DNA from: Flavobacteriales bacterium
GTDB taxonomy: Bacteria > Bacteroidota > Bacteroidia > NS11-12g > UBA955
DNA length: 39,868 bases
Assembly (NCBI GenBank): GCA_947463095.1
Contig: CANHRE010000016.1
Coordinates: 1-39,868, forward strand
Direction: 5' to 3'
Of this stretch, positions 5,048 through 31,410 are shown in pieces (within the stretch, counting starts at the first letter, position 1; each line of letters opens with the position of its first letter). A model generated the notes under the pieces. It worked only from the letters and a program-made list of their open reading frames with translations, was not told the origin of the DNA and searched no databases. Position numbers and translations under genes: made by a program.

Positions 5048-8000
5048 TTAGTGTTTAACCACTACTTTCTGGGTGGTAGTCTGTCCGTTGTTGCTCAGGC
5101 GTACGAGGTAGATACCTTCGCTTGCGCCAGAGAGGTCAACAGTGCTGGTAGCCATACCAGTAGCCGCGTTTCCTACTTCAGCAACTTTAACACCTGTAGC
5201 GTTGTAAACTTCAATGCTTACTGGGTTAGCGTTGTTCAACTTGTAGCTGATGCTCAGCTTGCCGTTGGTTGGGTTCGGGAACACATTTACTGCTGCGTCC
5301 AGGTTGAATTCATTCACACCGGTTGCCAGGTTCCAGCTGTTCAGGGTGTTCTGGCAATTCGGGGGATATCCTACGAATACTGGGCGAGAAACTACAGCGC
5401 TGGTGTTTCCGCTAGGATCAGTTACACGATAGTTAGCGTAATACACACCAGCTTCCCAGCTGTTGATGTTGTGGTTGATCAATACAACCGCGGGCAACAA
5501 GGTTGCTGGAGCATAGTAGTTGTCAGTGATTTGCAGACCATCCATCACATTGAAGCCATAGCCAATGCACACATTCACTACTGGAGCAATGATTTGTGGA
5601 GCCTTGGTATCGCGAACACGGATATAACGGGTGCGCACTGCGCTGTTACCGCTTGCGTCGGTAGCAGTGTAAGTCTCACTGTACAGACCCAAGGTATAAG
5701 GATCTACTGAACCGGTCTTCACCACGCTCACTTGAGATGCGCTGTAGAAGTTATCGGTTACAGTTACAGCCTTGCTGGTATAGGGAGAGTTCACTTCCAG
5801 ATAAACGGTATCTTCAGTATTCAATACAATCACAGGTGCAATGAAGTCATCCACTTTGTAATTGATTACGGCACCGTTGTTGGTGGCTACGTTACTTGAA
5901 GCGTCAACTGAAGTGTAAGTGATAGGATAGGTAGCACGCTGTGTAGTGTTTACCGGACCATTGAAACCAGGAGTTTTGGTGGTAGCGATAATACCTGTGC
6001 ATGGGTCATCAGAATATACACCGTCAACAAATACGCTGTTGATCTGAACATTGATGGTCATACCGTTGGTGATGGCTACTGCATTCATCATCATCGTAGG
6101 CTTCTTGGTATCAACCACGTTCACAGTGCGATTCATGGTGGCAGTGTTGCCCTGAGCATCGCGAACAGTGTAGGTGATAACATAGCTGCCCAACTTGTTG
6201 GTGTTTACAGTACCGCTTGCAACGATTGCGCTGGTGAGGTCTTTATTTACCAGATCGAATGCTGTTGCACCCGGATCGGTGAACGTACCACACTGTTCAA
6301 CACTCATTGGAGAAGTTCCGTTCAACGTAAGAACCGGAGGTGTGCGGTCTTCAACTACAATCACTACGCGGCGCTTAGGAGCTGCTTTGTTACCGGAGGC
6401 ATCTTCTACGTTGTACACGTAAGTGTAGATACCGGTATTGCACTGATCGAAATCGGTGGTAGTTACAATGCGGCTGGTGATATCGCCTTCAGTAGGATCA
6501 ATCGCTTTAGCACCTGCGTCTACGTAGGTAGTGGTACCGCAGTTTTTCTCTACACGAACGGTATCAGTACCATTCAGGGTGATCACTGGTGGCAATTGGT
6601 CGTTAGCCAGGATGATTCCGTAGTCTTCGAATTCACCTACGATGTTAGCGCCGCAGGGAGTATTGGCATAAGTGCTGTAAGAAACACCTACACGCATACG
6701 GGTTTTTCCTTCAAAGCTGTTTTTCAGGAATGGTACATTGAACTTAGCACTGGCGCTGGCAGTAGTAGCTGCAGACTCAGTCAACACTTCTTCGCCGACA
6801 TCAGTGAAGTCACCGTCAATGTTGAAGTCGATCCAAACCTTGCGGTTCATGGGGTTCACAGTAGTAGTCCTTGCAACTTCAACACCGTATTCAGCGCCGA
6901 AGGTGAGGGTAGCAACCTGTGTTTCAGCATAATCGGTGTACTGGTCAACACCTGAAGTGCTGGCATTGTCAATCAGCGATGTTGCGCCTTTGGTAACTTT
7001 CACGTTGTTGATTCCCACATCAGCACTTACCAGATTCACTACAGGAGTGCAGTAGTCAAGAACCACTACATATTTATCCTTCACTACAGTGTTCTGTGTA
7101 ACGGTTTGTGCTGAGCTGTTCCATCCCTTCAGGGTGAAGGTATAAGGACCACCACTGTTGAGTTTCAGCTTCAATATTTTATTGCTGCTGGTTGCGATGC
7201 TACCTGAAGTTACAGTATAGGTAGTTGGGAAAATATTCCAGTTGAACTGATTGGCATTATCTGCATCGATGGTGAGCGTGATTTCTTCCGCAATCTTGGG
7301 ACGACGGTTGCTTGCTGTAAAGTCGAGGATGGTCTTCTTATTAGGAGTGATTACCTCGATAGAGTCACAGTATTGGTCAATACCGGCACAGGAAGAAGCG
7401 CCCAGACAAACCTTATATTTTCCATCTGTGAAGAAGGTATGGCTCGCATTTTCAGAAAAATACTGAGTGAGGCTTCCTCCTTCATCAATATCCCACTGGT
7501 AGGCCATCAAACCATATTTTCCTGTGGTGGTATTTGCAAAGTCAACCTGTGTTGAGTTGTAGGCCGGTTTGTATTTCACACTCCAAGCAGCTGTAGGAGG
7601 CGTTTGTGGACCAAGTTTGCTGATGAATGTGCCTATGAAACCGGAATCCTGACCTGATGCGTTAGACTGGAAGGTGATGTACATCGCCCCAGATTTAGCA
7701 GTGAAGGTGGTTTTGAGGGCACCAGCCTGTGAAGCTGAATTGATACCGGAGCCGGGATGCAAAGCTTTTCCTGATTCGTCTGTGCCATCATAAATTTTGA
7801 TGAAGTCGTTAACGTCAGACAATTTGATTTGGGAAAATTTCAAATTGATTTCAGTAGCGTTACAAGGCTGAATCAGCAGACGGTCAACGAAGTTACTGCG
7901 GTTGGTACCGTAGTTGGCATTCGGGCCGGCGTGGTCATAGATACGACCGGTGGAAACCTGTGTGCTCAAGGCACCATTACCCAAAGGATAGTCGCTGGGA

Positions 8001-9169
8001 GGATTTACCTTGATGTGGGCCTTTTTAACAAATACAGGTGACCATCCGTTGTCGTTATAGGCGGTCAGGGTAACGGTATACGTACCGGGGATGTCCATGA
8101 AGAAAATTGGATTCTTCTTGCCATCGGGATCGGCAGGAGGATTCACACGGCTGGTTTCGTCGTAATAAATGGCAGGAACCTGAGTGGAATCATATACTTC
8201 CCAATGCCAATCGTAAGGTCCGTATTGGCTCAGGTCAAACAGTTGAACCAGATCGTATTGTTCACAAACGTTCTTGCTGGCAATGAAGTCCGCAACGGGA
8301 ACAACAGATGGCGCCTTGATGGTGATATTCTTGGAGATACTGTCACGGCCTAAGCAATTCGTGGAGCGCAGTTTTACAGAATACGTGCCGGCTGTAGCAA
8401 ATGCTTTAGCCCAGTTTGTACCGGTGAAATCGTATCCCGAACCATTATCCGAACCATCCCATTCGTGGCTGATATATCCCTTCTGGTTCTTGTTGATGAA
8501 GGACAACCTGGTTTTCACCCAAGTGGTATTGGGATCGGGCAGGAAGAAATCAGCGGCTAATGAAGTTGGCAGACCGAGGTTAATGTCATAGTCTTCTACC
8601 TCACCGTAGTTCATGTTTCCGCAACCATTACCTGGGCCCATGGCGTAGAAATAAATCTCGGAACGAACGCGAAGGCGAGTTCTTCCGGGGCTTACGTTGG
8701 TGCAGGGAATGGTGAAATTCTTCGAGGTCAGTGAACCAGCGGCATAAGTACCCCAACCATTCGACATATACTCTGCATTGGCAAAGTTACCGTCGCGGTT
8801 CAGGTCAATCCAGACGCCGATGTACGCTGCATAACCCCATGAAGAGTTTTGTGCAATGTTGGAGGTGTAGGTACCGCCGGCAGTCAGGTCGAAAGGCTTA
8901 CCGCTATTCACCACGAAGTTGGTGGTTGAAGAGCCTGCAGTTACTGCAGAGCAGCCGTCATCCGCCTTGTTGTAGATGACTTTGCCGTCCTGAACAAACT
9001 GCACCTGCCCGATGGGCGCGTAGTAGTAGTTGGGCGTTCCCACCCAGCAACCCCACTGGTTACCTGCCGCACACCAGGTCTGCGCCGAGGCGCTGGACCC
9101 GAATCCCAGCGCAGCAATCAGCGCCGGAATACGCAGCAATTTGATGGTTTGAGTAATTAGTGATCTCAT
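5048..9169 (-). CDS. Large T9SS-secreted multidomain surface protein (GEVED, PKD, CUB, DUF5011 repeats)
   Basis: The 1373-residue protein has a Sec signal peptide ending near ASAQ (residue 30). Domains read in order: a GEVED-type domain (about 40-200, motif GEVEDYDINLG), PKD-like domains (200-390), a CUB-like domain (about 395-517, with FIKIYDGTDESG), further PKD-like domains (525-700), a second GEVED domain (705-855, GEFEDYGI), then five Ig-like DUF5011-type repeats (858-1266; the third is degenerate) recognised by the recurring D-G-D/N-x-A pattern. Residues 1292-1373 are a T9SS type A sorting domain (VFPNPTNGKLSI ... GIYLVRL ... QKVVVKH). It is therefore exported by Sec and then T9SS to the cell surface or medium. 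No catalytic domain was recognised; adhesion or matrix function is inferred. ATG 9169 gives a good signal peptide. Confidence 0.88.
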   Translation of the reverse strand: MRSLITQTIKLLRIPALIAALGFGSSASAQTWCAAGNQWGCWVGTPNYYYAPIGQVQFVQDGKVIYNKADDGCSAVTAGSSTTNFVVNSGKPFDLTAGGTYTSNIAQNSSWGYAAYIGVWIDLNRDGNFANAEYMSNGWGTYAAGSLTSKNFTIPCTNVSPGRTRLRVRSEIYFYAMGPGNGCGNMNYGEVEDYDINLGLPTSLAADFFLPDPNTTWVKTRLSFINKNQKGYISHEWDGSDNGSGYDFTGTNWAKAFATAGTYSVKLRSTNCLGRDSISKNITIKAPSVVPVADFIASKNVCEQYDLVQLFDLSQYGPYDWHWEVYDSTQVPAIYYDETSRVNPPADPDGKKNPIFFMDIPGTYTVTLTAYNDNGWSPVFVKKAHIKVNPPSDYPLGNGALSTQVSTGRIYDHAGPNANYGTNRSNFVDRLLIQPCNATEINLKFSQIKLSDVNDFIKIYDGTDESGKALHPGSGINSASQAGALKTTFTAKSGAMYITFQSNASGQDSGFIGTFISKLGPQTPPTAAWSVKYKPAYNSTQVDFANTTTGKYGLMAYQWDIDEGGSLTQYFSENASHTFFTDGKYKVCLGASSCAGIDQYCDSIEVITPNKKTILDFTASNRRPKIAEEITLTIDADNANQFNWNIFPTTYTVTSGSIATSSNKILKLKLNSGGPYTFTLKGWNSSAQTVTQNTVVKDKYVVVLDYCTPVVNLVSADVGINNVKVTKGATSLIDNASTSGVDQYTDYAETQVATLTFGAEYGVEVARTTTVNPMNRKVWIDFNIDGDFTDVGEEVLTESAATTASASAKFNVPFLKNSFEGKTRMRVGVSYSTYANTPCGANIVGEFEDYGIILANDQLPPVITLNGTDTVRVEKNCGTTTYVDAGAKAIDPTEGDITSRIVTTTDFDQCNTGIYTYVYNVEDASGNKAAPKRRVVIVVEDRTPPVLTLNGTSPMSVEQCGTFTDPGATAFDLVNKDLTSAIVASGTVNTNKLGSYVITYTVRDAQGNTATMNRTVNVVDTKKPTMMMNAVAITNGMTINVQINSVFVDGVYSDDPCTGIIATTKTPGFNGPVNTTQRATYPITYTSVDASSNVATNNGAVINYKVDDFIAPVIVLNTEDTVYLEVNSPYTSKAVTVTDNFYSASQVSVVKTGSVDPYTLGLYSETYTATDASGNSAVRTRYIRVRDTKAPQIIAPVVNVCIGYGFNVMDGLQITDNYYAPATLLPAVVLINHNINSWEAGVYYANYRVTDPSGNTSAVVSRPVFVGYPPNCQNTLNSWNLATGVNEFNLDAAVNVFPNPTNGKLSISYKLNNANPVSIEVYNATGVKVAEVGNAATGMATSTVDLSGASEGIYLVRLSNNGQTTTQKVVVKH

Positions 9170-11086: not shown

Positions 11087-13237
11087 ATGCATCGTCCATT
11101 GAAACAATTTCTATCGATACTCACCCTGGCGCTCAGCCTAAGCCTGAACGGGCAAATAATCAAGTACCCGGATTTCACGTACCACCTGAGCAAAAGCACG
11201 GTAAAAACGGGAGAAACCATTGAACTGATTCTTACTACCTCAAATATCCCTCCAACTTGGCACCTGTTTAGTGAGGAAACCGATTGTCCACCAGAAGAAG
11301 GTCCGGTAGAAGCCAGTCTTGAGTTCACCCCCCATACCAGCTATCAATTGGTAGGTAAGCTCAGCAGCGTTGGCGACCATATGGTGCGCGACGACATTTT
11401 TGGCTGCAGCACCGGACAGTTTGAAGGCAAGGCGGAGTTTCGTCAGAAAATTAAAATACTGGCGCCCAATCCTGTGATTCAGCTGCGCTTTCTCGGCCAG
11501 ATGTGCACCGACGTTACCGGCATGTGCGTACCGGTGAAGTCGCCGATCATCGAAATCAAAAGCCTCAAGGTGGAAGGTACTGCTTTAGAAGCACCGGCTG
11601 TGGCACCATCAGGCCCGGCTTCCCTGCCGGATACCCCGGTGATCCATCCGACACCCGCTCTTGCTCCAACAACTGCAGCTGTGGCACCGGCGGGAATTCC
11701 CGGCTATCGCGCCTCAGGACCCAACGAAGCCGGCACCTGTAAACCTAAAAGTTTTGGAGGCAGCATCCCTGTGCAAAGTCAGGGTTTAGGGACCCTATTC
11801 CTGCTGGCCTTTGTTTCCGGACTCCTGGGCTTGATTACACCGTGTGTGTTTCCCATGATTCCTATGACGGTAAGCTTCTTTATGAAGAAAAAAAGCAGGG
11901 CTGTAGCCATCAGGGAAGCCCTCATCTTCGCCTTTTCCATTATTGCTATTTACACCGTGCTGGGCACGTTGGTGGCTTTCGCATTCGGCGCGGAAGCAGG
12001 CAATTGGGTTAGCACACACTGGATACCGAACCTGTTTTTCTTTGTGATATTCTTGGTTTTTGCCGCTTCGTTTTTTGGTGCTTTCGAATTGGTGCTACCT
12101 GCCGCACTGGTGAATAAAGTGGACAGACAGGCCGACAAGGGCGGAATCCTTGGCCCGGTATTCATGGCCCTGACCATTGCCCTGGTTTCATTTAGCTGCA
12201 CCGGCCCTATTGTTGGAACGGTGTTGGCACAATCCATCACCGGTAATTTTCTGACTCCTGTGGTGGGCATGCTGGGCTTTTCATTGGCATTTGCCCTCCC
12301 CTTCGGACTTTTCGCCCTGTTTCCATCGTGGCTGAGTAGCCTGCCCAAGTCGGGTGGCTGGCTGAACAGTGTAAAAGTGGTACTGGGTTTCCTGGAAGCA
12401 GCCTTCGCCCTAAAATTCCTGAGCATAGCGGACCAGACTTACCACTGGCGTCTGTTGGACCGCGAAGTTTATTTGGCACTGTGGATTGCCATCTTCATAC
12501 TCATGGGATTGTATTTGCTTGGAAAAATCCGCTTTGCGCATGACAGCGAGGTTGGGCATTTGGGTATTGGGCGTCTGGGCCTTGTTATTGCCACCTTCAG
12601 TTTTGTGGTATACCTGATTCCCGGGATGTGGGGTGCGCCGTTGAAGTTTCTGGCCGGATACCTGCCCCCGATGCATACCCAGGATTTCGATATCAACCGC
12701 AGCATACGTGAAGCCGCCGGCCTAAGCGGCAATGTAATCGGAAAACCGCGTTATTCAGACCAATTACATCTTCCCCATGGCCTGGTTGGCTATTTTGACT
12801 ACGATGAAGCGCTGGCCGCATCAAAGGAGTTGAAAAAACCTTTGTTCATCGACTTCACCGGCCACGGCTGTGTTAATTGCCGCAAAATGGAAGAGATGGT
12901 TTGGAGCCATCCTACTGTACTTAAACTACTGCGGGAAGAGTTTGTGATTGCCTCACTGTATGTTGACGACCACAAGATAAAGTTGCCGGTGGAGGAGCAA
13001 TTTTACAGCCGCTGGAGCGGTGAAAAAATCACCGAGCTGGGTGCCAAGAATGCGGACATCGAATTGTGTTACTTCGCAGCCAATGCGCAGCCATTGTACA
13101 TCCTGCTTGACGGCAAGGAGCAGATGTTGCAGGCCGCCGGTTCTGCAGAATCCTTCAATTATAAGCCTGAAGCCTTCGCAGCCTTTCTGGAAGCCGGCTT
13201 GAAGAATTTCAAACAACAAACAACCACCAACCCATGA
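11087..13237 (+). CDS. dsbD: Thiol:disulfide interchange protein DsbD family
   Basis: This 716-residue inner-membrane protein carries reducing power from cytoplasmic thioredoxin to the periplasm. A signal peptide is followed by an N-terminal DsbD-alpha-like domain (to about residue 150) with a cysteine pair in CTDVTGMC. After a proline/alanine-rich linker come about eight membrane segments with the two conserved membrane cysteines, C253 (TPCVFPM) and C371 (SCTGP). The C-terminal thioredoxin-like domain carries CVNC at 595-598. All three redox centres are thus present. Its stop overlaps the gmhA start in ATGA, indicating translational coupling. An imperfect 7-bp hairpin lies upstream at 11037-11057; its meaning is unclear. 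Confidence 0.92.
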
Positions 13238-19760: not shown

Positions 19761-20432
19761 ATGCACATTGCCATAACAGGAAAGGAATCATCCATAGCAG
19801 CGCTCGTTGCAGGGTTGTCATCAGGGGTCAATATTACCAAAATTGACGCAAATCATATCCCACAATCTTCCCTCAATCATTTTGATGCGGTATTCGATGT
19901 GGATTTCGAAGCACACCCTGCCCTGCTCAGCCATTATGCCAGCCAAAACGGCCCCCTGTATTTCCTGGGATGCTGCTATACACAGCTGGAAGCCTTGTTT
20001 AAGCAACAGGGCAATCCTCCACACAACGGTTTTATCGGCATGTGTAACTTCCCGGGCATGCTTGATCGGAATGTTCTGGAACTGACCGATCCGTATGGCG
20101 CTGACCGGGCACTGGCCTCTGAAGTGGTTAGAAACCTGGGATTTGACCATGCTGAATGGGTACACAGCCGTGTAGGTTTTGTAAGCCCTAGAATCATATG
20201 CATGATCATCAACGAGGCTTACTATACCGTTCAGGAAGGAACCGCCAGCCGCGATGACGTGGATCAGGCAATGAAGCTTGGAACCAATTACCCCAAAGGC
20301 CCATTTGAGTGGTGCCGCGAGGCGGGCATCCATTCAGTATATCGCCTGTTGGAGGCTATGTATGAAGATACAAAAGAGGAGCGCTATAAAATATGCCCCT
20401 TGCTAAAAAGCGAGTTTCTGAGGAGTATTTAG
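19761..20432 (+). CDS. 3-hydroxyacyl-CoA dehydrogenase-like protein with degenerate N-terminal domain
   Basis: 223 residues. The C-terminal half (about 125-215) is a clear 3-hydroxyacyl-CoA dehydrogenase C-terminal domain: VGFVSPRIICMIINEAYYTV, EGTASRDDVDQAMKLGTNYPKGPFEW. The N-terminal part is only about 115 residues instead of the usual 185 or so. It begins MHIAITGKESSIA, without the GxGxxG NAD-binding loop. Where the family has GMHFFNP with the catalytic histidine, this protein reads GMCNFPGM. A normal dehydrogenase reaction is therefore doubtful; a binding or regulatory role, or a changed activity, is possible. ATG 19761 is preferred over the longer frame from 19698, which overlaps ridA. 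The stop shares TTAG with the convergent peroxiredoxin gene. Confidence 0.8.
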   Translation: MHIAITGKESSIAALVAGLSSGVNITKIDANHIPQSSLNHFDAVFDVDFEAHPALLSHYASQNGPLYFLGCCYTQLEALFKQQGNPPHNGFIGMCNFPGMLDRNVLELTDPYGADRALASEVVRNLGFDHAEWVHSRVGFVSPRIICMIINEAYYTVQEGTASRDDVDQAMKLGTNYPKGPFEWCREAGIHSVYRLLEAMYEDTKEERYKICPLLKSEFLRSI

Positions 20433-20923
20433 TTGCTCCCCTGAGTACCTTGTATTGATTCCAGTGCGCCGCGAATAGCGTCGAAATCTGGTATATCACC
20501 TGCACTTTCCAATACCTCGGCATAGCGAATAATGCCTTCTGCATCTACCACAAAGGCTGAACGCTTAGCAACACCGTGCATATTAAACACAAAGGTGTCA
20601 TAGTAAGATCCGTATGCCTGGCAAACATTCTTGTTGAAGTCGGATAACATATCAAAGTTGAACTGCTGGGCGTCCTTGAATGCGGCAAGCGTAAACGGGC
20701 TGTCAACGGAAATGGCTACAACGGAAGCGTTTAGGCTTTGATACTCAGAAAGTCCATCGCGCACGGAACATAGTTCTGTGGTACAAACACCGGTGAATGC
20801 CTGGGGGAAGAACAGGATGACCAGGTTCTTTCCATGGAAATCTGATAGGCTCACTTCTTTTTTATCGCTGTTGAACAGGGTGAATTGTGGCGCAGCATCG
20901 CCAGGTTTGAGTTGAATAGTCAT
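20429..20923 (-). CDS. Peroxiredoxin (AhpC/TSA superfamily, AhpE-like)
   Basis: A 164-residue thiol peroxidase that reduces hydroperoxides. The N-terminal LKPGDAAPQFTLFN and the active-site block FFPQAFTGVCTTELCSVRD (peroxidatic C47; another Cys at 52) are typical, as is VVDAEGIIRYAEV. The order and length resemble the AhpE group rather than BCP or Tpx. C52, five residues later, and another Cys near 100 are candidates for resolving thiols; whether it is 1-Cys or 2-Cys is not decidable. No signal peptide is seen, so it is cytoplasmic. The start is ATG 20923. Confidence 0.9.
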   Translation of the reverse strand: MTIQLKPGDAAPQFTLFNSDKKEVSLSDFHGKNLVILFFPQAFTGVCTTELCSVRDGLSEYQSLNASVVAISVDSPFTLAAFKDAQQFNFDMLSDFNKNVCQAYGSYYDTFVFNMHGVAKRSAFVVDAEGIIRYAEVLESAGDIPDFDAIRGALESIQGTQGSN

Positions 20924-21177: not shown

Positions 21178-24100
21178 ATGAAAAGACTCCTTACCACCAC
21201 ATTGTTGATCGCCATGCTATGCAGCGGTCAGTTGCTACGCGGGCAACAGTTCCTTGGAAATGTACAGGGAAATTACAACACCACGCAGGCCATGTTGCAG
21301 AATCCGGCGCAGGTTTATCCTGACAGGAACCGGGTGTACATCCACTGGTGGAGCTACGGCGCAGAGTTTAACAATAACTACTTGCGCTATGCGGCTCCTT
21401 TCAGCTTATGGAAATGGAGTGCGGGCAACATTCCAACAGCGCAGCAGAACCGCTTTGGCCGGGTCAACTGGAACGATAACTGGTTGGAGTCTTTCGGCAA
21501 CAGCAATCAGAAATTCTTCAATTATATAAGCACCTCTCAGGGGCCATCATTTGCCTTTAGGGTGAACAGGAATTTCGCCTTTGGGTTCAGCACCAGAACG
21601 GTACAGGGCATCAGTATTACAGGGATTCAGGAACCGCTGGCGCAAATCGCCCGTTACGGTATACAAACTGCTCCGGGACGCTTCCCCGGCAATGGCCTGC
21701 TGCGGAATACCAATTACAGCAACGGGGCCTTCTCCACCAATACCGACAACTATCAGGAATTCAACTTCACCTTTGGCAGGGCGCGAGGAAAAAACTCAGC
21801 GCACCTCTGGAAAACAGGATTCACCGGTCGCTTCATGCTGGGCTTCGGCGCAGCTTATGTGGGCGGCTCTGATTTAAATTATCGTTTCGAAGGGCGCGAC
21901 AGCCTGTTTTTTGAGCAAGCTAATTTCCGCACAGCCCACAGCGGAACAAACTCAGTACTCAATGCCATGAATAGTCCTCTGGGCTTGTGGTTTCAGGAAG
22001 TGAACGGCGTTGGATTCGGGTTTGATTACGGATTTGTTTACGAATACCGTCCGGAACGAGCCCGCCTGAACACCCGACACCGCACCGACTGCTGGTATGA
22101 AAAAGACCGCGACTACCGTCTGCGCCTTGGCGCCTCCTTGCGCGACGTGGGTATGATTGCCTACTTCAACGGCACTGCGCGCAACGCTGAAGTAAGCAAC
22201 CAATACTGGAAAGTGAACCGCAACCTGGTCAATAATTACAATCCTTTCGGGGGCGACATCTTTGAGCACTTGGACAGCGGCTTTACCGACCGGCTGGGAA
22301 CCAATGTTAACAAGTCTGACGCTTTTGCCACCTTCACTCCTGCCTCATTGAATGTTCAGTTCGATTATCATATGGGTTCCGGCTGGTACCTTGGCGCAAA
22401 CCTTAACCAGAACCTACGAGGAAAAAGTGGCCCCGGATTGCGCAGTATGTCGCAGCTTTCATTGATTCCACGCTATGAACATGAAGACGTGGAACTAGGC
22501 ATGCCGCTCTCCCTTACCGGTAACTACCAGCGATTTGCTATGGGACTTTACGGCCGACTGGGGCCCTTCATGCTGGGTACCGATAACCTGCCGGGACTTT
22601 TCGCCATGAGCACCGGTGGCAAGATGGCCGGAGCCAGTCTATACGGTGGATTCCGCTTCAAAATCAACCCCTGTCCATGGTGGGTAAATACCAAAACAGA
22701 TTTGGTTGCACCCATCACCGATAGCATGGTAAAACCTGGCGACACCATCAAAACCATTCAGAAGGATACCATTATTATTCGCGATACCGTTAGCATAGAA
22801 AAAAAGATTCGCGACACGGTATATGTTACCCGCAACAGCAGTACTGTTGGTGCAGAAGTGAATAAAAAAGAACAGGATTTACTGAAAAAAGAAGAAGACC
22901 TGAAGCGCCGGGAAGCAGCAGTACTGGCCAAAGAAATCCAACAAAGCAAAAACACCGGCAACTGCTGCGAAGATCTGTCGATAATGAGCGGAAAACTACA
23001 GCAGGAACAGGACCGCAGCGCGCGGCTCCAGGCTCAGGTGAATGCACTTCAGCAGGACAAAACAAGCCTGAACAACCAGTTGAACCAATGCAAAACAGGA
23101 AGCACAGTTACTGCGGAAGTGAATCGCCTCAAGACAGAAAATGAAACCCTGAAAAGCGCCAATACGAAGCTGCAGCAGGACCTGACCAAGTGCGGTGAAA
23201 ATGCCTCCGTGCTCAGTGCCGAGGTAAATACCCTAAAAAGCAAAGTATCCAGCCTGGAAAGCCAGTTGGCGCAATGCAAAGCAGGCAGCACCATAACTGC
23301 TGATGTGAATAAAACAAAGACAGAGAATGATAATCTGAAAACTGAGGTTGCCACGTTAAAGGCCCGTATAAGCGCGCTGGAAGGGCAATTGGCCCAGTGC
23401 AAGGCAGGAAGCGGGGGCAGCAGCACCATTACTGCGGATGTAAACAAACTGAAATCCGACAATGATGCCCTCCGCGCACGCAATACCCAACTGGAAAATG
23501 ACCTCACAAAGGAAAAAGCCTCCAATGCCACCATCACCGCTGAAATCAATGGCTTGAAGAAGCAGGTTGCTGAGCAGCAGGGCAAGATTGCGGCTTTAGA
23601 AGCAGAGCTTCAAAAATGCAAGAGCGAAGGCGCTTCGGCTGCCATTACCGCCGAAGTAAACCGCCTGAAGAAAGACGTAGATGACTTCAAGGCCAAGATT
23701 GCCGTTCTGGAATCAGACCTGTCAAAGGAAAAGGCTGCCAACGCGACCATCACTGCCGAGGTGAACCGCCTGAAGAAAGAAAACGAAGATCAAAAAACCC
23801 GTATTGCCTCACTGGAAGCAGAGCTTCAGAAGTGCAAATCCACCGACGCAACGTCCACCCTTACTGCGGAAATCAACAAGCTGAAGAAGGACAATACCGA
23901 CCAGGTAAATAAGATTTCCGCGCTGGAAGCCGAATTGCAGAAGTGTAAATCCACCGATGCCTCTTCCACCCTCACGGCCGAAATCAACAAGTTGAAATCA
24001 GAAAACAGCACCCTGAAGGCTCAGGTGAGCACGTTGGAACAAAAAGTTTCTGAAACCAAAAACTGCAGTGATGAGTTAGCCGCGCTGAAGCAAAAGAACG

Positions 24101-24870
24101 CGGAACTGGAAAGCCAAATCAAGGCGGTGAAGGCGGAGTACCAATACGCGGTTTCAGAGAACAGTAAACTCAAGGCCCAGGTAGCCGATTTGGAAGCGAA
24201 GCTGAAAAATTGCGACGGAGAAGCGGCCTCAAAACTCGAGGCTGAGGTTGCCCAACTGAAAAAAACCAATGCGGAACTGACGGCAAAAACAGCACAACTG
24301 GAAAGTGAGAATGCCCGCCTCAAGCAGACCAACAGTGAATTGGACGCCAAGGTAAAAGCTGCGGAAAACAACAACGCCCAGGAACAGCTCACCCTGTTGA
24401 AGCAGGAATATGACGCCTTAAGGCTTCAGAACAACAACAACCGCGATAAGGTACGCGAACTGGAAGCTCAGACCAGCGCACTGAAAGAGCGTATCAATCA
24501 GCTGGAAGCGCAGCTTGAGGCCTGTAAGAGCAATCAGAACGGCGGTGGCGGTCAAGGCATGATACGCCCTCAAACACCGGAGCAGCGCATAGGCCAGGCC
24601 GCTGAATTCCTGCGCAGGGTTGGTCAGGACGCTTCGGGAAATGGTAATACAGGCAGAAGCGGATCAGGCAGCAGCGTGCGCCAGCCCAGCCCTGCATCCT
24701 CCAACTCCGGACAGAGCCGCCCTGCTTCGGGCAGTTCAGGTATGAGCACTGGTAATGCCGCCGAAACAACACCAGCTCAAAGGAAACCGGCGCAACCGGC
24801 ATCCAATACCCCAGCAGAAAATCGCACTGCACAGCCACAGCCGGGAATAAACGGCCAGGACGGTCAGTAA
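21178..24870 (+). CDS. DUF5723-like outer-membrane barrel fused to a long cysteine-patterned coiled coil
   Basis: 1230 residues from ATG 21178. A signal peptide (MKRLLTTTLLIAMLCSGQLLRGQ) precedes about 500 residues rich in aromatic beta-strand sequence; the opening (QFLGNVQGNYNTTQAMLQNPAQVYPDRNR...) resembles the DUF5723 family of Bacteroidota outer-membrane proteins. From about residue 555 to 1120 the protein is a nearly continuous coiled coil. Within it a 27-45-residue unit, mostly 35-37, built around (I/L)TAE(V/I)NxLK recurs about nine times (642-935). Most units carry a single Cys in an LxxCK context. The last 110 residues are Ser/Gly/Pro/Gln-rich low complexity. The barrel would sit in the outer membrane and the coil would most simply project into the periplasm; orientation and function are inferred. 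The start at 21142 would add residues before the signal peptide and is less likely. A terminator follows. Confidence 0.82.
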   Translation: MKRLLTTTLLIAMLCSGQLLRGQQFLGNVQGNYNTTQAMLQNPAQVYPDRNRVYIHWWSYGAEFNNNYLRYAAPFSLWKWSAGNIPTAQQNRFGRVNWNDNWLESFGNSNQKFFNYISTSQGPSFAFRVNRNFAFGFSTRTVQGISITGIQEPLAQIARYGIQTAPGRFPGNGLLRNTNYSNGAFSTNTDNYQEFNFTFGRARGKNSAHLWKTGFTGRFMLGFGAAYVGGSDLNYRFEGRDSLFFEQANFRTAHSGTNSVLNAMNSPLGLWFQEVNGVGFGFDYGFVYEYRPERARLNTRHRTDCWYEKDRDYRLRLGASLRDVGMIAYFNGTARNAEVSNQYWKVNRNLVNNYNPFGGDIFEHLDSGFTDRLGTNVNKSDAFATFTPASLNVQFDYHMGSGWYLGANLNQNLRGKSGPGLRSMSQLSLIPRYEHEDVELGMPLSLTGNYQRFAMGLYGRLGPFMLGTDNLPGLFAMSTGGKMAGASLYGGFRFKINPCPWWVNTKTDLVAPITDSMVKPGDTIKTIQKDTIIIRDTVSIEKKIRDTVYVTRNSSTVGAEVNKKEQDLLKKEEDLKRREAAVLAKEIQQSKNTGNCCEDLSIMSGKLQQEQDRSARLQAQVNALQQDKTSLNNQLNQCKTGSTVTAEVNRLKTENETLKSANTKLQQDLTKCGENASVLSAEVNTLKSKVSSLESQLAQCKAGSTITADVNKTKTENDNLKTEVATLKARISALEGQLAQCKAGSGGSSTITADVNKLKSDNDALRARNTQLENDLTKEKASNATITAEINGLKKQVAEQQGKIAALEAELQKCKSEGASAAITAEVNRLKKDVDDFKAKIAVLESDLSKEKAANATITAEVNRLKKENEDQKTRIASLEAELQKCKSTDATSTLTAEINKLKKDNTDQVNKISALEAELQKCKSTDASSTLTAEINKLKSENSTLKAQVSTLEQKVSETKNCSDELAALKQKNAELESQIKAVKAEYQYAVSENSKLKAQVADLEAKLKNCDGEAASKLEAEVAQLKKTNAELTAKTAQLESENARLKQTNSELDAKVKAAENNNAQEQLTLLKQEYDALRLQNNNNRDKVRELEAQTSALKERINQLEAQLEACKSNQNGGGGQGMIRPQTPEQRIGQAAEFLRRVGQDASGNGNTGRSGSGSSVRQPSPASSNSGQSRPASGSSGMSTGNAAETTPAQRKPAQPASNTPAENRTAQPQPGINGQDGQ
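23080..24006 (+). repeat. Tandem coding repeats (about 105-111 bp) in the coiled-coil region
   Basis: Units share the encoded motif TxTAE(V/I)NxLK and mostly end in LxxCK. Spacings between successive motifs are 35, 27, 45, 35, 37, 35, 37 and 37 codons. The last two complete units are nearly the same in protein but differ at many third positions, so they are older than a recent slippage event. Explained by repeated protein structure, not by CRISPR. Confidence 0.85.
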
Positions 24871-29323: not shown

Positions 29324-29737
29324 ATGAAACGAAAGATATGGATTGGCATCGGCATTGTGCTGCTGGCAGGCGCCGGTTACGGTGCTTATATGTACTTCAA
29401 AAAGGCCGAGCGCGTGATGAGTGGCCAGGCTGCATTCATCATGACCACCTCGCAACTGTTGTCGGAATTTGAACAAAATGAAGACAGTGCAAACAAGAAA
29501 TACCTCAACCAAATCATACAAGTTGCCGGAACCATTGAATCCATAAGCCCGGACAGCACCGGAACGAATGTTCTTTTGGGAACAGATAATCCAATGGCCG
29601 GGGTGAATTGCCGATTTGATAAAGAGGTTGAATCTAAGATCAAGAACCTGAAAGTAAACGACAGCATTAAGGTAAAAGGCCAGTGTTCGGGCTATGTGAT
29701 GGATGCCTTGCTGTCGCGATGTGATTTGGTGAAGTAG
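29324..29737 (+). CDS. Membrane-anchored OB-fold protein (tRNA_anti-like)
   Basis: 137 residues. An N-terminal membrane anchor (MKRKIWIGIGIVLLAGAGYGAYMYF) is followed by a domain of about 90 residues, FIMTTSQLLSEFEQNED ... YLNQIIQVAGTIESI ... VNCRFDKE ... VKVKGQCSG-type strands, that resembles the OB-fold tRNA_anti-like family of Bacteroidota. It probably sits on the periplasmic side. No ligand can be assigned. A 222-bp gap separates it from the YceI gene. Confidence 0.78.
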   Translation: MKRKIWIGIGIVLLAGAGYGAYMYFKKAERVMSGQAAFIMTTSQLLSEFEQNEDSANKKYLNQIIQVAGTIESISPDSTGTNVLLGTDNPMAGVNCRFDKEVESKIKNLKVNDSIKVKGQCSGYVMDALLSRCDLVK

Positions 29738-29959
29738 TCATCACAGTGGTGGTTGCCTTCGCTTCGACGGCGCCCCCCTGCTATTGTGGAGCGGCGGTCC
29801 TTTAACAGGCTCAAGATGACAGGGTTCAATGCCATGATGAGCCTGCCATGGTGTTTATCGCGAACCATAGTGGGCGCAGGCGGGAACCAAGCCTGTCGAA
29901 CTATGCTCTCACAATGTGATCAACTGATTTTGGCAAACTTTTTGCCCTATTTTTCCCAT
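29738..29959. repeat. Intergenic region with degenerate dispersed-repeat sequence
   Basis: No gene is supported. AACAGGCTCAAGATGACAGGG at 29804-29824 and AAGCCTGTCGAACTATGCT at 29889-29907 are in opposite orientation and resemble the GACAGGCTCAGGATGACAGGG-type intergenic repeat seen in many bacterial genomes. The 9-mer ATGACAGGG recurs at 31479-31487. An open frame crosses this region into YceI, but its composition does not look coding. The YceI promoter is presumably near 29930-29955. Confidence 0.5.
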
Positions 29960-30526
29960 ATGAAAAAATCCCTCGTTAACCTAACCACCCTGGGCATTGG
30001 AGCAGCCTTACTCATGGCCCTGGCGCCTTCAGGCAATATTTACATCTCCCGCAACGGGCATGTGAGTTTTCTGAGCAGCACCCCGCTTGAGGACATTAAA
30101 GGCGACAACAATCAGGTAGGTTCTGTGCTTGATATCACCAGCGGTGGCATTGATTTTACCATTGCCATCACGGCCTTCCAGTTCGACAAGGCCAAACTGC
30201 AGGAGCACTTCAATGAGAACTACATGGAGAGCACCAAGTTTCCCAAAGCCATTTATAAAGGAACCATCAGCAACCTGTCAGAAATCAAATTCGGCACCGC
30301 CGGAACTTATAAAGCCAAGGTGAACGGGAAGATGACCATGCATGGTGTAACCAAAGACCTGGCCGCCGATGGAACCATTGAAGTAAAGGGCACCCAGGTC
30401 ATTGTGAAGAGCACTTTCAATATTGACCCTGCCGATTATCAGATTAAAATCCCCGAGGCCGTTAAAGACAAGATTGCCAAATCCATCAAGGTTTCAGTAG
30501 ATTGCGTACTGAATCCAAAACCATGA
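29960..30526 (+). CDS. YceI family protein
   Basis: 188 residues from ATG 29960 with a signal peptide (MKKSLVNLTTLGIGAALLMALAPSG). The lipocalin-like YceI fold is indicated by GHVSFLSSTPLEDIKGDN, FTIAITAFQFDKAKLQEHFNENYMES, FPKAIYKGTISN, GKMTMHGVTKDL, and a final IKVSVDCVL strand. YceI proteins bind isoprenoid or similar lipids in the periplasm. Its stop overlaps the next start in ATGA (30523-30526), so it is translationally coupled to the DUF5777 barrel. Confidence 0.92.
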   Translation: MKKSLVNLTTLGIGAALLMALAPSGNIYISRNGHVSFLSSTPLEDIKGDNNQVGSVLDITSGGIDFTIAITAFQFDKAKLQEHFNENYMESTKFPKAIYKGTISNLSEIKFGTAGTYKAKVNGKMTMHGVTKDLAADGTIEVKGTQVIVKSTFNIDPADYQIKIPEAVKDKIAKSIKVSVDCVLNPKP

Positions 30527-31410
30527 ACCGCATTCAGGCATTCATAAAAAAGGCAGGTGCAACAGCACTTGCCTTTTTCTTTTGTACGCTGTCGCTGAGC
30601 GCGCAAGAAGATTTACTCAGCCTGCTGGATTCTGCAGAGGGCCCTGCTTCCGGCGTTCCGGTAAGCGCCAGCTTCAAATCTACCCGCATCATCAACTGCC
30701 AGAGCCTGGAGATTACCGATGCCGGCACCATGGACATTAAAATTCAGCACCGCTTTGGCACCTTCAACTCGGGCGCCTATAATTTCTGGGGACTGGATGC
30801 AGCTACCATCCGCATTGGCGCGGAAGTAGGCACTGGCCACGGCACCATGATTGGTTTCGGGCGCAGTTCCGTGGGCAAAACCATCGATGCCTATGCCAAG
30901 TGGAAGTTCATGGCGCAAACCACAGATAACAAAAAACCTTTCAGCGCCCTGTTGTTTGTATCGGCGGCCCGTCGCGGCGACCAGTTTCCAGGCCTGACTA
31001 TAAGCCCACAGGAGCGGATTTCCTACGTAGGGCAAATCATCCTGGGTCGGAAGTTTTCCGATGCCTTCAGCCTGCAAATCATGCCCACCTGGGTGCAGCA
31101 CGGACGCAGCTTTGAAGGCGGAGCCACTACCCTAACCGGACTCGGAGTGGGCTTCCGGCAGAAAATCACTCCACGCACCAGCCTCAATGCGGAATACGTG
31201 TATTTCCCCGCCTCGCAATTAGCTCCAGGCAACAGCAATCCCCTTTCCATCGGCCTGGACATAGAAACAGGAGGTCACGTATTTCAGATACACATAACCA
31301 ACAGCCTGGGCATGACCGACAAGAGCTTCCTCACCGAAACCAGCGGCAATATGTTCCGCGGCGATATCCGCCCCGGGTTTAACATTACCAGGGTATTCAA
31401 TATTTATTGA
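30523..31410 (+). CDS. DUF5777 family outer-membrane beta-barrel protein
   Basis: 295 residues from ATG 30523. A signal peptide (ending SLSAQ) is followed by regularly alternating beta-strands. Recognisable DUF5777 segments are STRIINCQSLEITDAGTMD, IQHRFGTFNSG, FWGLDAATIRIGAEVG, and the C-terminal FRGDIRPGFNITRVF. The last residues (IY) fit a barrel end. Coupling to YceI suggests a shared task, perhaps passing a lipid or quinone-like ligand between YceI and the outer membrane; that is inference. Confidence 0.88.
   Translation: MNRIQAFIKKAGATALAFFFCTLSLSAQEDLLSLLDSAEGPASGVPVSASFKSTRIINCQSLEITDAGTMDIKIQHRFGTFNSGAYNFWGLDAATIRIGAEVGTGHGTMIGFGRSSVGKTIDAYAKWKFMAQTTDNKKPFSALLFVSAARRGDQFPGLTISPQERISYVGQIILGRKFSDAFSLQIMPTWVQHGRSFEGGATTLTGLGVGFRQKITPRTSLNAEYVYFPASQLAPGNSNPLSIGLDIETGGHVFQIHITNSLGMTDKSFLTETSGNMFRGDIRPGFNITRVFNIY

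Follow-up and report, generated by a model that had tools for sequence, protein, structure and literature searches.

The closest described systems are the DUF5723-TSP3-OmpA and DUF5723-TSP3-SPOR proteins of Bacteroidota, in which an outer-membrane barrel is followed by a long, cysteine-rich periplasmic extension made of TSP3 repeats and a peptidoglycan-binding domain. SlpA of Deinococcus radiodurans, with a coil of ~28 nm (PMC9388160), and OmpM of diderm Firmicutes, an outer-membrane tether to the cell wall (PMC10628300), likewise combine an outer-membrane barrel with a long periplasmic rod. We analyzed a gene from a 39,868-nucleotide stretch of a Flavobacteriales genome (contig CANHRE010000016.1, assembly GCA_947463095.1; the window), which encodes a barrel homologous to that of the DUF5723-TSP3 proteins, with an equally placed, long and cysteine-rich extension that is here a coiled coil. 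The cysteines of this coil follow the heptad repeat, and we propose that two copies of the protein probably pair into a parallel rod, which symmetric disulfides at the d positions zip together and which serves the outer membrane as spacer, tether or scaffold.

The coil differs from that of SlpA in being cysteine-rich and in having a dimer-like core. SlpA is a trimer that runs from an N-terminal SLH domain through the coil to a C-terminal barrel; here the order is reversed, and no SLH domain was matched in the barrel or tail, nor among the 25 Pfam families listed, out of 50, for the full protein. A likeness of mechanism only is offered by PLVAP of vertebrate endothelial diaphragms, which likewise has cysteines at core sites suited to bonding between chains. 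The crystal structure of its extracellular domain is a parallel dimeric coil, in which five symmetric interchain disulfides within an 89-residue segment offset non-canonical heptads (PMC10083539). However, PLVAP is a eukaryotic type II membrane protein of the oxidizing secretory pathway and shares no homology with the present protein. The lambda spanins Rz/Rz1 bridge the periplasm with a coiled coil and disulfides (PMC5295617), but are phage lysis proteins and not barrel-anchored rods. The literature searched does not mention DUF5723, and a disulfide-zipped rod was not found described in it for a bacterial outer-membrane protein, although the eukaryotic precedent exists.

The gene is laid out as follows.

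21178–24870, + strand: whole gene, 1230 amino acids, DUF5723 barrel fused to a cysteine-rich coiled coil
21178–21246, + strand: signal peptide, about residues 1–23, MKRLLTTTLLIAMLCSGQLLRGQ, called by eye and with a simple script; cleavage site approximate
21328–22584, + strand: DUF5723 outer-membrane barrel, residues 51–469 (Pfam PF18990, E = 1.3e-30)
22090–22092, + strand: Cys305 of the barrel, from the barrel alignment
22672–22674, + strand: Cys499, right behind the last barrel strand, from the barrel alignment
22735–22824, + strand: DT-rich linker KTIQKDTIIIRDTVSIEKKIRDTVY from barrel to coil, read from the sequence and similar in homologues
22825–24534, + strand: coiled coil, residues 550–1119 (~570 residues), from the heptad fit and single-sequence AlphaFold2
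24535–24867, + strand: tail rich in Gly, Ser, Pro and Asn, with no known domain in Pfam

The match to the PF18990 profile passed its curated cut-off of 26.8 bits with a score of 107.7 bits, and the barrel probably extends to about residue 497. A PDB profile search using the barrel alignment gave no match. Behind the barrel, neither TSP_3 nor an OmpA or SPOR peptidoglycan-binding domain was found among the same 25 listed Pfam families, out of 50; the tail contains no TSP_3 and matches no family. The genome encodes two further DUF5723 proteins, both without a coil. Cys305 and Cys499 are both present in the aligned coil-bearing members of the family, unlike the coil-less and TSP3 relatives aligned, none of which has Cys305 or the pair. 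It is possible that they form a putative barrel disulfide, while shared descent could also explain their co-occurrence.

Comparison across the class reveals an architecture swap. The barrel occurs in 186 of 395 genomes of the class. Two of the 17 class relatives that we inspected stop at the barrel and 15 continue into TSP3 repeats, 14 of which show an OmpA-like pattern in a motif scan. One further OmpA case was confirmed by Pfam (7e-24), and the sister family carries TSP3 plus SPOR at the same place (9e-6). Since TSP3 with OmpA or SPOR occupies this place in the relatives, the C-terminal coil is assigned to the periplasm, in agreement with the periplasmic rod suggested in the preliminary description of this sequence. 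Thus, the site of the peptidoglycan tether in the relatives is taken in this family by the coil. The barrel is widespread among the 57 related genomes searched, and the same barrel/coil fusion is present in 30 of the 35 genomes of the family, a count compiled from several searches of relatives in which some copies were cut by contig ends. A contig search found one close relative, REEB481, a metagenome-assembled Bacteroidetes bacterium, which is the closest named record. A coil-only search of the class was insensitive, missing a known homologue.

Next, we examined where the cysteines lie in the heptad repeat. The register was fitted in a window around each cysteine, with the cysteine itself masked, in 15 representative homologues, about one per genus so as to limit kinship, although the counts stay partly dependent. 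Cysteines with a clear register (n = 158) fell at d in 73% of cases and at a in 21%, which places 94% in the hydrophobic core, while the non-cysteine residues spread evenly over the heptad at ~14% per position. Seen from the other side, cysteine fills 12.7% of the d positions and 3.8% of the a positions. When all 27 coils were used, and with each of four thresholds and four window widths, the d share stayed at 64–85%; two coils, L042 and L043, are unlike the others in using a and d about equally. In the present gene all nine clear-register cysteines sit at d, or 11 of 12 when weak fits are counted. Of the 203 spacings between adjacent cysteines in the representatives, 74 were multiples of 7, against 25 ± 5 after shuffling (2000 shuffles, maximum 42), so that the phasing is well beyond chance. 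Leu at −7, −3, +4 and +7 around the cysteines fits the d position independently.

Parallel dimers of the GCN4 type typically have Ile, Val or Asn at a and Leu at d. By the heptad fit, position a drew Ile (56%), Val (39%) and Asn (23%), and Leu lay at d (51%), a core composition that fits a parallel dimer; set beside the trimer of SlpA, the sequence favours a dimer.

The repeat units and the coil cysteines, with the position of each in the heptad, are as follows.

23107–24069, + strand: stretch of nine units that opens with an (I/L/V)(T/S)A(E/D)(V/I)N motif at residue 644 and closes just past Cys963
22963–22968, + strand: Cys596-Cys597 pair where the main coil begins; many homologues have CxxC or CC here
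23089–23091, + strand: Cys638, d (weak fit), adjoining a predicted helix break
23191–23193, + strand: Cys672, d
23275–23277, + strand: Cys700, d, adjoining a predicted helix break
23398–23400, + strand: Cys741, d, adjoining a predicted helix break
23617–23619, + strand: Cys814, d, at a predicted helix break
23833–23835, + strand: Cys886, d, adjoining a predicted helix break
23944–23946, + strand: Cys923, d (weak fit), at a predicted helix break
24064–24066, + strand: Cys963, d (weak fit)
24211–24213, + strand: Cys1012, d, at a predicted helix break
24523–24525, + strand: Cys1116, d, at the end of the coil

The preliminary description had reported the fusion, about nine units and 12 coil cysteines, all of which are borne out by Pfam, the heptad fit and the motif count. 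The nine units lie at residues 644–932, with spacings of 35, 27, 45, 35, 37, 35, 37 and 37. It had also read the thiols as evenly spaced, but the gaps range from 1 to 104 residues, and heptad phase is the regularity that matters. Its pattern of one cysteine per unit in an LxxCK context holds in part: the context fits 7 of the 12 cysteines, while Glu replaces the cysteine in two of the nine units. In most homologues whose C-terminus is complete, the coil closes on a cysteine in an LxxxLxxC-like context. A tandem repeat finder run on the DNA detected no recent tandem array, from which we take the coil repeats to be old, and codon comparison between the units gave modest evidence of constraint.

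The cysteines are conserved as a rule more than as single sites. The nearest relative keeps 10 of 10 comparable cysteines, which is weak evidence since its other positions are 74–84% identical, and in the next relative the sites have shifted at unchanged density. Density and register persist where single sites turn over between genera. Every complete coil holds 7–23 cysteines, and a search among the coil-bearing homologues for the same coil devoid of cysteine found none. Cysteine makes up 2.1–4.5% of the family coils, 0.94% of exported and 1.21% of cytosolic proteins of the genome (a 400-kb sample of 20 stretches of 20 kb, with genes and signals called by a simple script). Control coils, collected with an SMC profile search of 20 related genomes after removing one orthologue fragment (L129), contain 6 cysteines in ~2500 residues, all within one protein.

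We considered the geometry of such a coil. For an idealized parallel coil of two strands, the computed Cβ–Cβ distance is 2.9–4.1 Å in a d layer and 5.6–7.1 Å in an a layer over the parameter range. The pair suited to disulfides is d–d' in parallel coils, with one natural case shown, and a–d' in antiparallel coils (PMC6146289). At d, the two chains of a parallel coil can be bonded by a disulfide without strain. Single-sequence AlphaFold2 predicted the coil as all helix with breaks, at a mean predicted local distance difference test (pLDDT) score of 72. There are nine predicted breaks in the main coil, and a cysteine lies within 3 residues of eight of them, against 1.7 expected; in the homologues as a group the association between cysteines and helix breakers is weaker.

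In the arrangement that we propose, the DUF5723 barrel is lodged in the outer membrane and its C-terminus would enter the periplasm as the ~570-residue coil. Two copies would pair in parallel and in register, so that matching d-position cysteines could form symmetric interchain disulfides, about one per 40 residues and mostly at the C-terminal end of helical segments, where the heptad pattern breaks. The covalently zipped rod would keep its register over the breaks and link two barrels, giving a dimeric barrel assembly, and would serve as envelope spacer, tether or scaffold in place of the TSP3-OmpA or TSP3-SPOR tether. Odd and even totals of coil cysteines are about equally common in the homologues, as expected if every cysteine bonds its twin in the other chain. 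Such a design would be a new kind of envelope spacer, drawing its strength from heptad-phased covalent staples rather than from a domain that binds the cell wall. The rule of cysteine at d is simple, is kept where the sequence diverges, and can be directly tested and searched for elsewhere.

Several observations weigh against this proposal. The register was fitted with a simple home-made procedure, and barrel structure prediction from two sequences reached a pLDDT of only 24. No peptidoglycan-binding domain was recognized in the coil or tail, which leaves attachment of the far end unproven. If straight, the ~570 residues would measure ~85 nm (0.15 nm per residue), which exceeds a typical periplasm; the rod must therefore be kinked at the breaks or run along the membrane. 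The remaining points concern oxidation. None of the 57 relatives searched has DsbB and two of them have VKOR, while searches of this genome found no DsbB, VKOR, Thioredoxin_4 or exported DsbA, its sole DsbA-fold match appearing cytoplasmic. Its exported proteins show no excess of even cysteine counts (26 even against 32 odd in the 400-kb sample), and general oxidative folding may be weak in this genome. The interchain disulfides raised in the preliminary description are strongly favoured by the d-position rule together with the parallel-dimer core composition, whereas the oxidation itself is unproven.

Thiols that face each other in the core may oxidize without an enzyme. A broader proposal, which we advance tentatively and rate at somewhat below even, is that the whole family swapped its peptidoglycan tether for a zipped dimeric rod that is oxidized with neither DsbB nor, in almost all cases, VKOR, and here with no recognized exported DsbA, through spontaneous core pairing or an undescribed oxidant. 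This raises the question of how exported proteins are oxidized in a lineage that lacks the usual disulfide-forming enzymes. Relatives without DsbB, and mostly without VKOR, nevertheless export cysteine-rich TSP3 and coil proteins.

The missing oxidation machinery makes a metal-binding coil a real rival, albeit an unlikely one. The cysteines would stay reduced and, stacked as layers of thiolates in the coil core, bind a metal, for example Cu(I) or Zn(II), making the rod a periplasmic metal store or buffer. The zinc hook of Rad50 is a four-thiol site formed in a dimer, and the CxxC or CC pairs that recur near the start of the coil and in later segments could form similar sites; no known disulfide oxidase was found in this genome. 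However, most of the cysteines are single d positions, and one per chain supplies two ligands per dimer; neither His enrichment nor a metal-handling neighbour was seen, the gene neighbourhood is not conserved, and the Cys305/Cys499 pair suggests that disulfides do form in these proteins.

We judge it quite improbable that cysteine is just a tolerated core residue, in a pattern with no chemical function. Cysteine is hydrophobic enough for a core, and its single sites drift between species, but an unselective core residue should not show the more than threefold preference for d over a; moreover, the control coils of the same genomes are nearly cysteine-free and most complete homologues close the coil with a cysteine.

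There is little chance that the rod is a strain or redox sensor, as the preliminary description suggested, whose thiols would respond to redox state or tension by opening and closing and would alter its stiffness or signalling, DsbD being the reductase. The window does encode a DsbD-like protein (11087–13234), 7.9 kb from the barrel-coil gene, and an AhpC/TSA-family peroxiredoxin (20432–20923, − strand) divergent from it. Outside the genus no synteny was found around the gene, except one weak AhpC match near it in L045, so we rejected this neighbourhood as evidence, and DsbD as a partner is unsupported. No signalling domain was found, and 12–23 redundant sites that turn over between genera suit structural staples better than a switch. 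A coil folded back into antiparallel hairpins, whose turns would be closed by intrachain disulfides, has a similarly slim chance: helix breaks do occur every 30–100 residues, beside cysteines, but a–d' pairing (PMC6146289) predicts about equal use of a and d, whereas d exceeds a more than threefold except in L042 and L043, where the two are nearly equal, and the coil cysteine counts are often odd.

We therefore return to the disulfide-zipped parallel dimer as the preferred reading, and note several other coils encountered in the searches. L127 (contig 189 of genome G004) is a 312-residue coil with no obvious signal peptide and a run of cysteines at exact seven-residue spacing, NCTDLKNECSTLKDDCETLKSDC; as far as seen, it is unrelated to the barrel family. 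The coil of the family member L050 ends in ~200 residues of cysteine-free helix rich in Ala, Lys, Glu and Arg, which resembles a single stable helix, and its genome (G012) is one of the two with VKOR. Related genomes also encode very long coil proteins, L136 and L138, with open frames of 2382 and 2450 amino acids and nearly cysteine-free coils, of which L138 appears to be exported.

Elsewhere in the window, genes for tRNA_anti-like, YceI-like and DUF5777 barrel proteins adjoin at 29324–31407 in an operon-like arrangement. A 1373-residue protein encoded at 5051–9169 (− strand) combines PKD, GEVED and Ig-like domains with a type IX secretion sorting tail.

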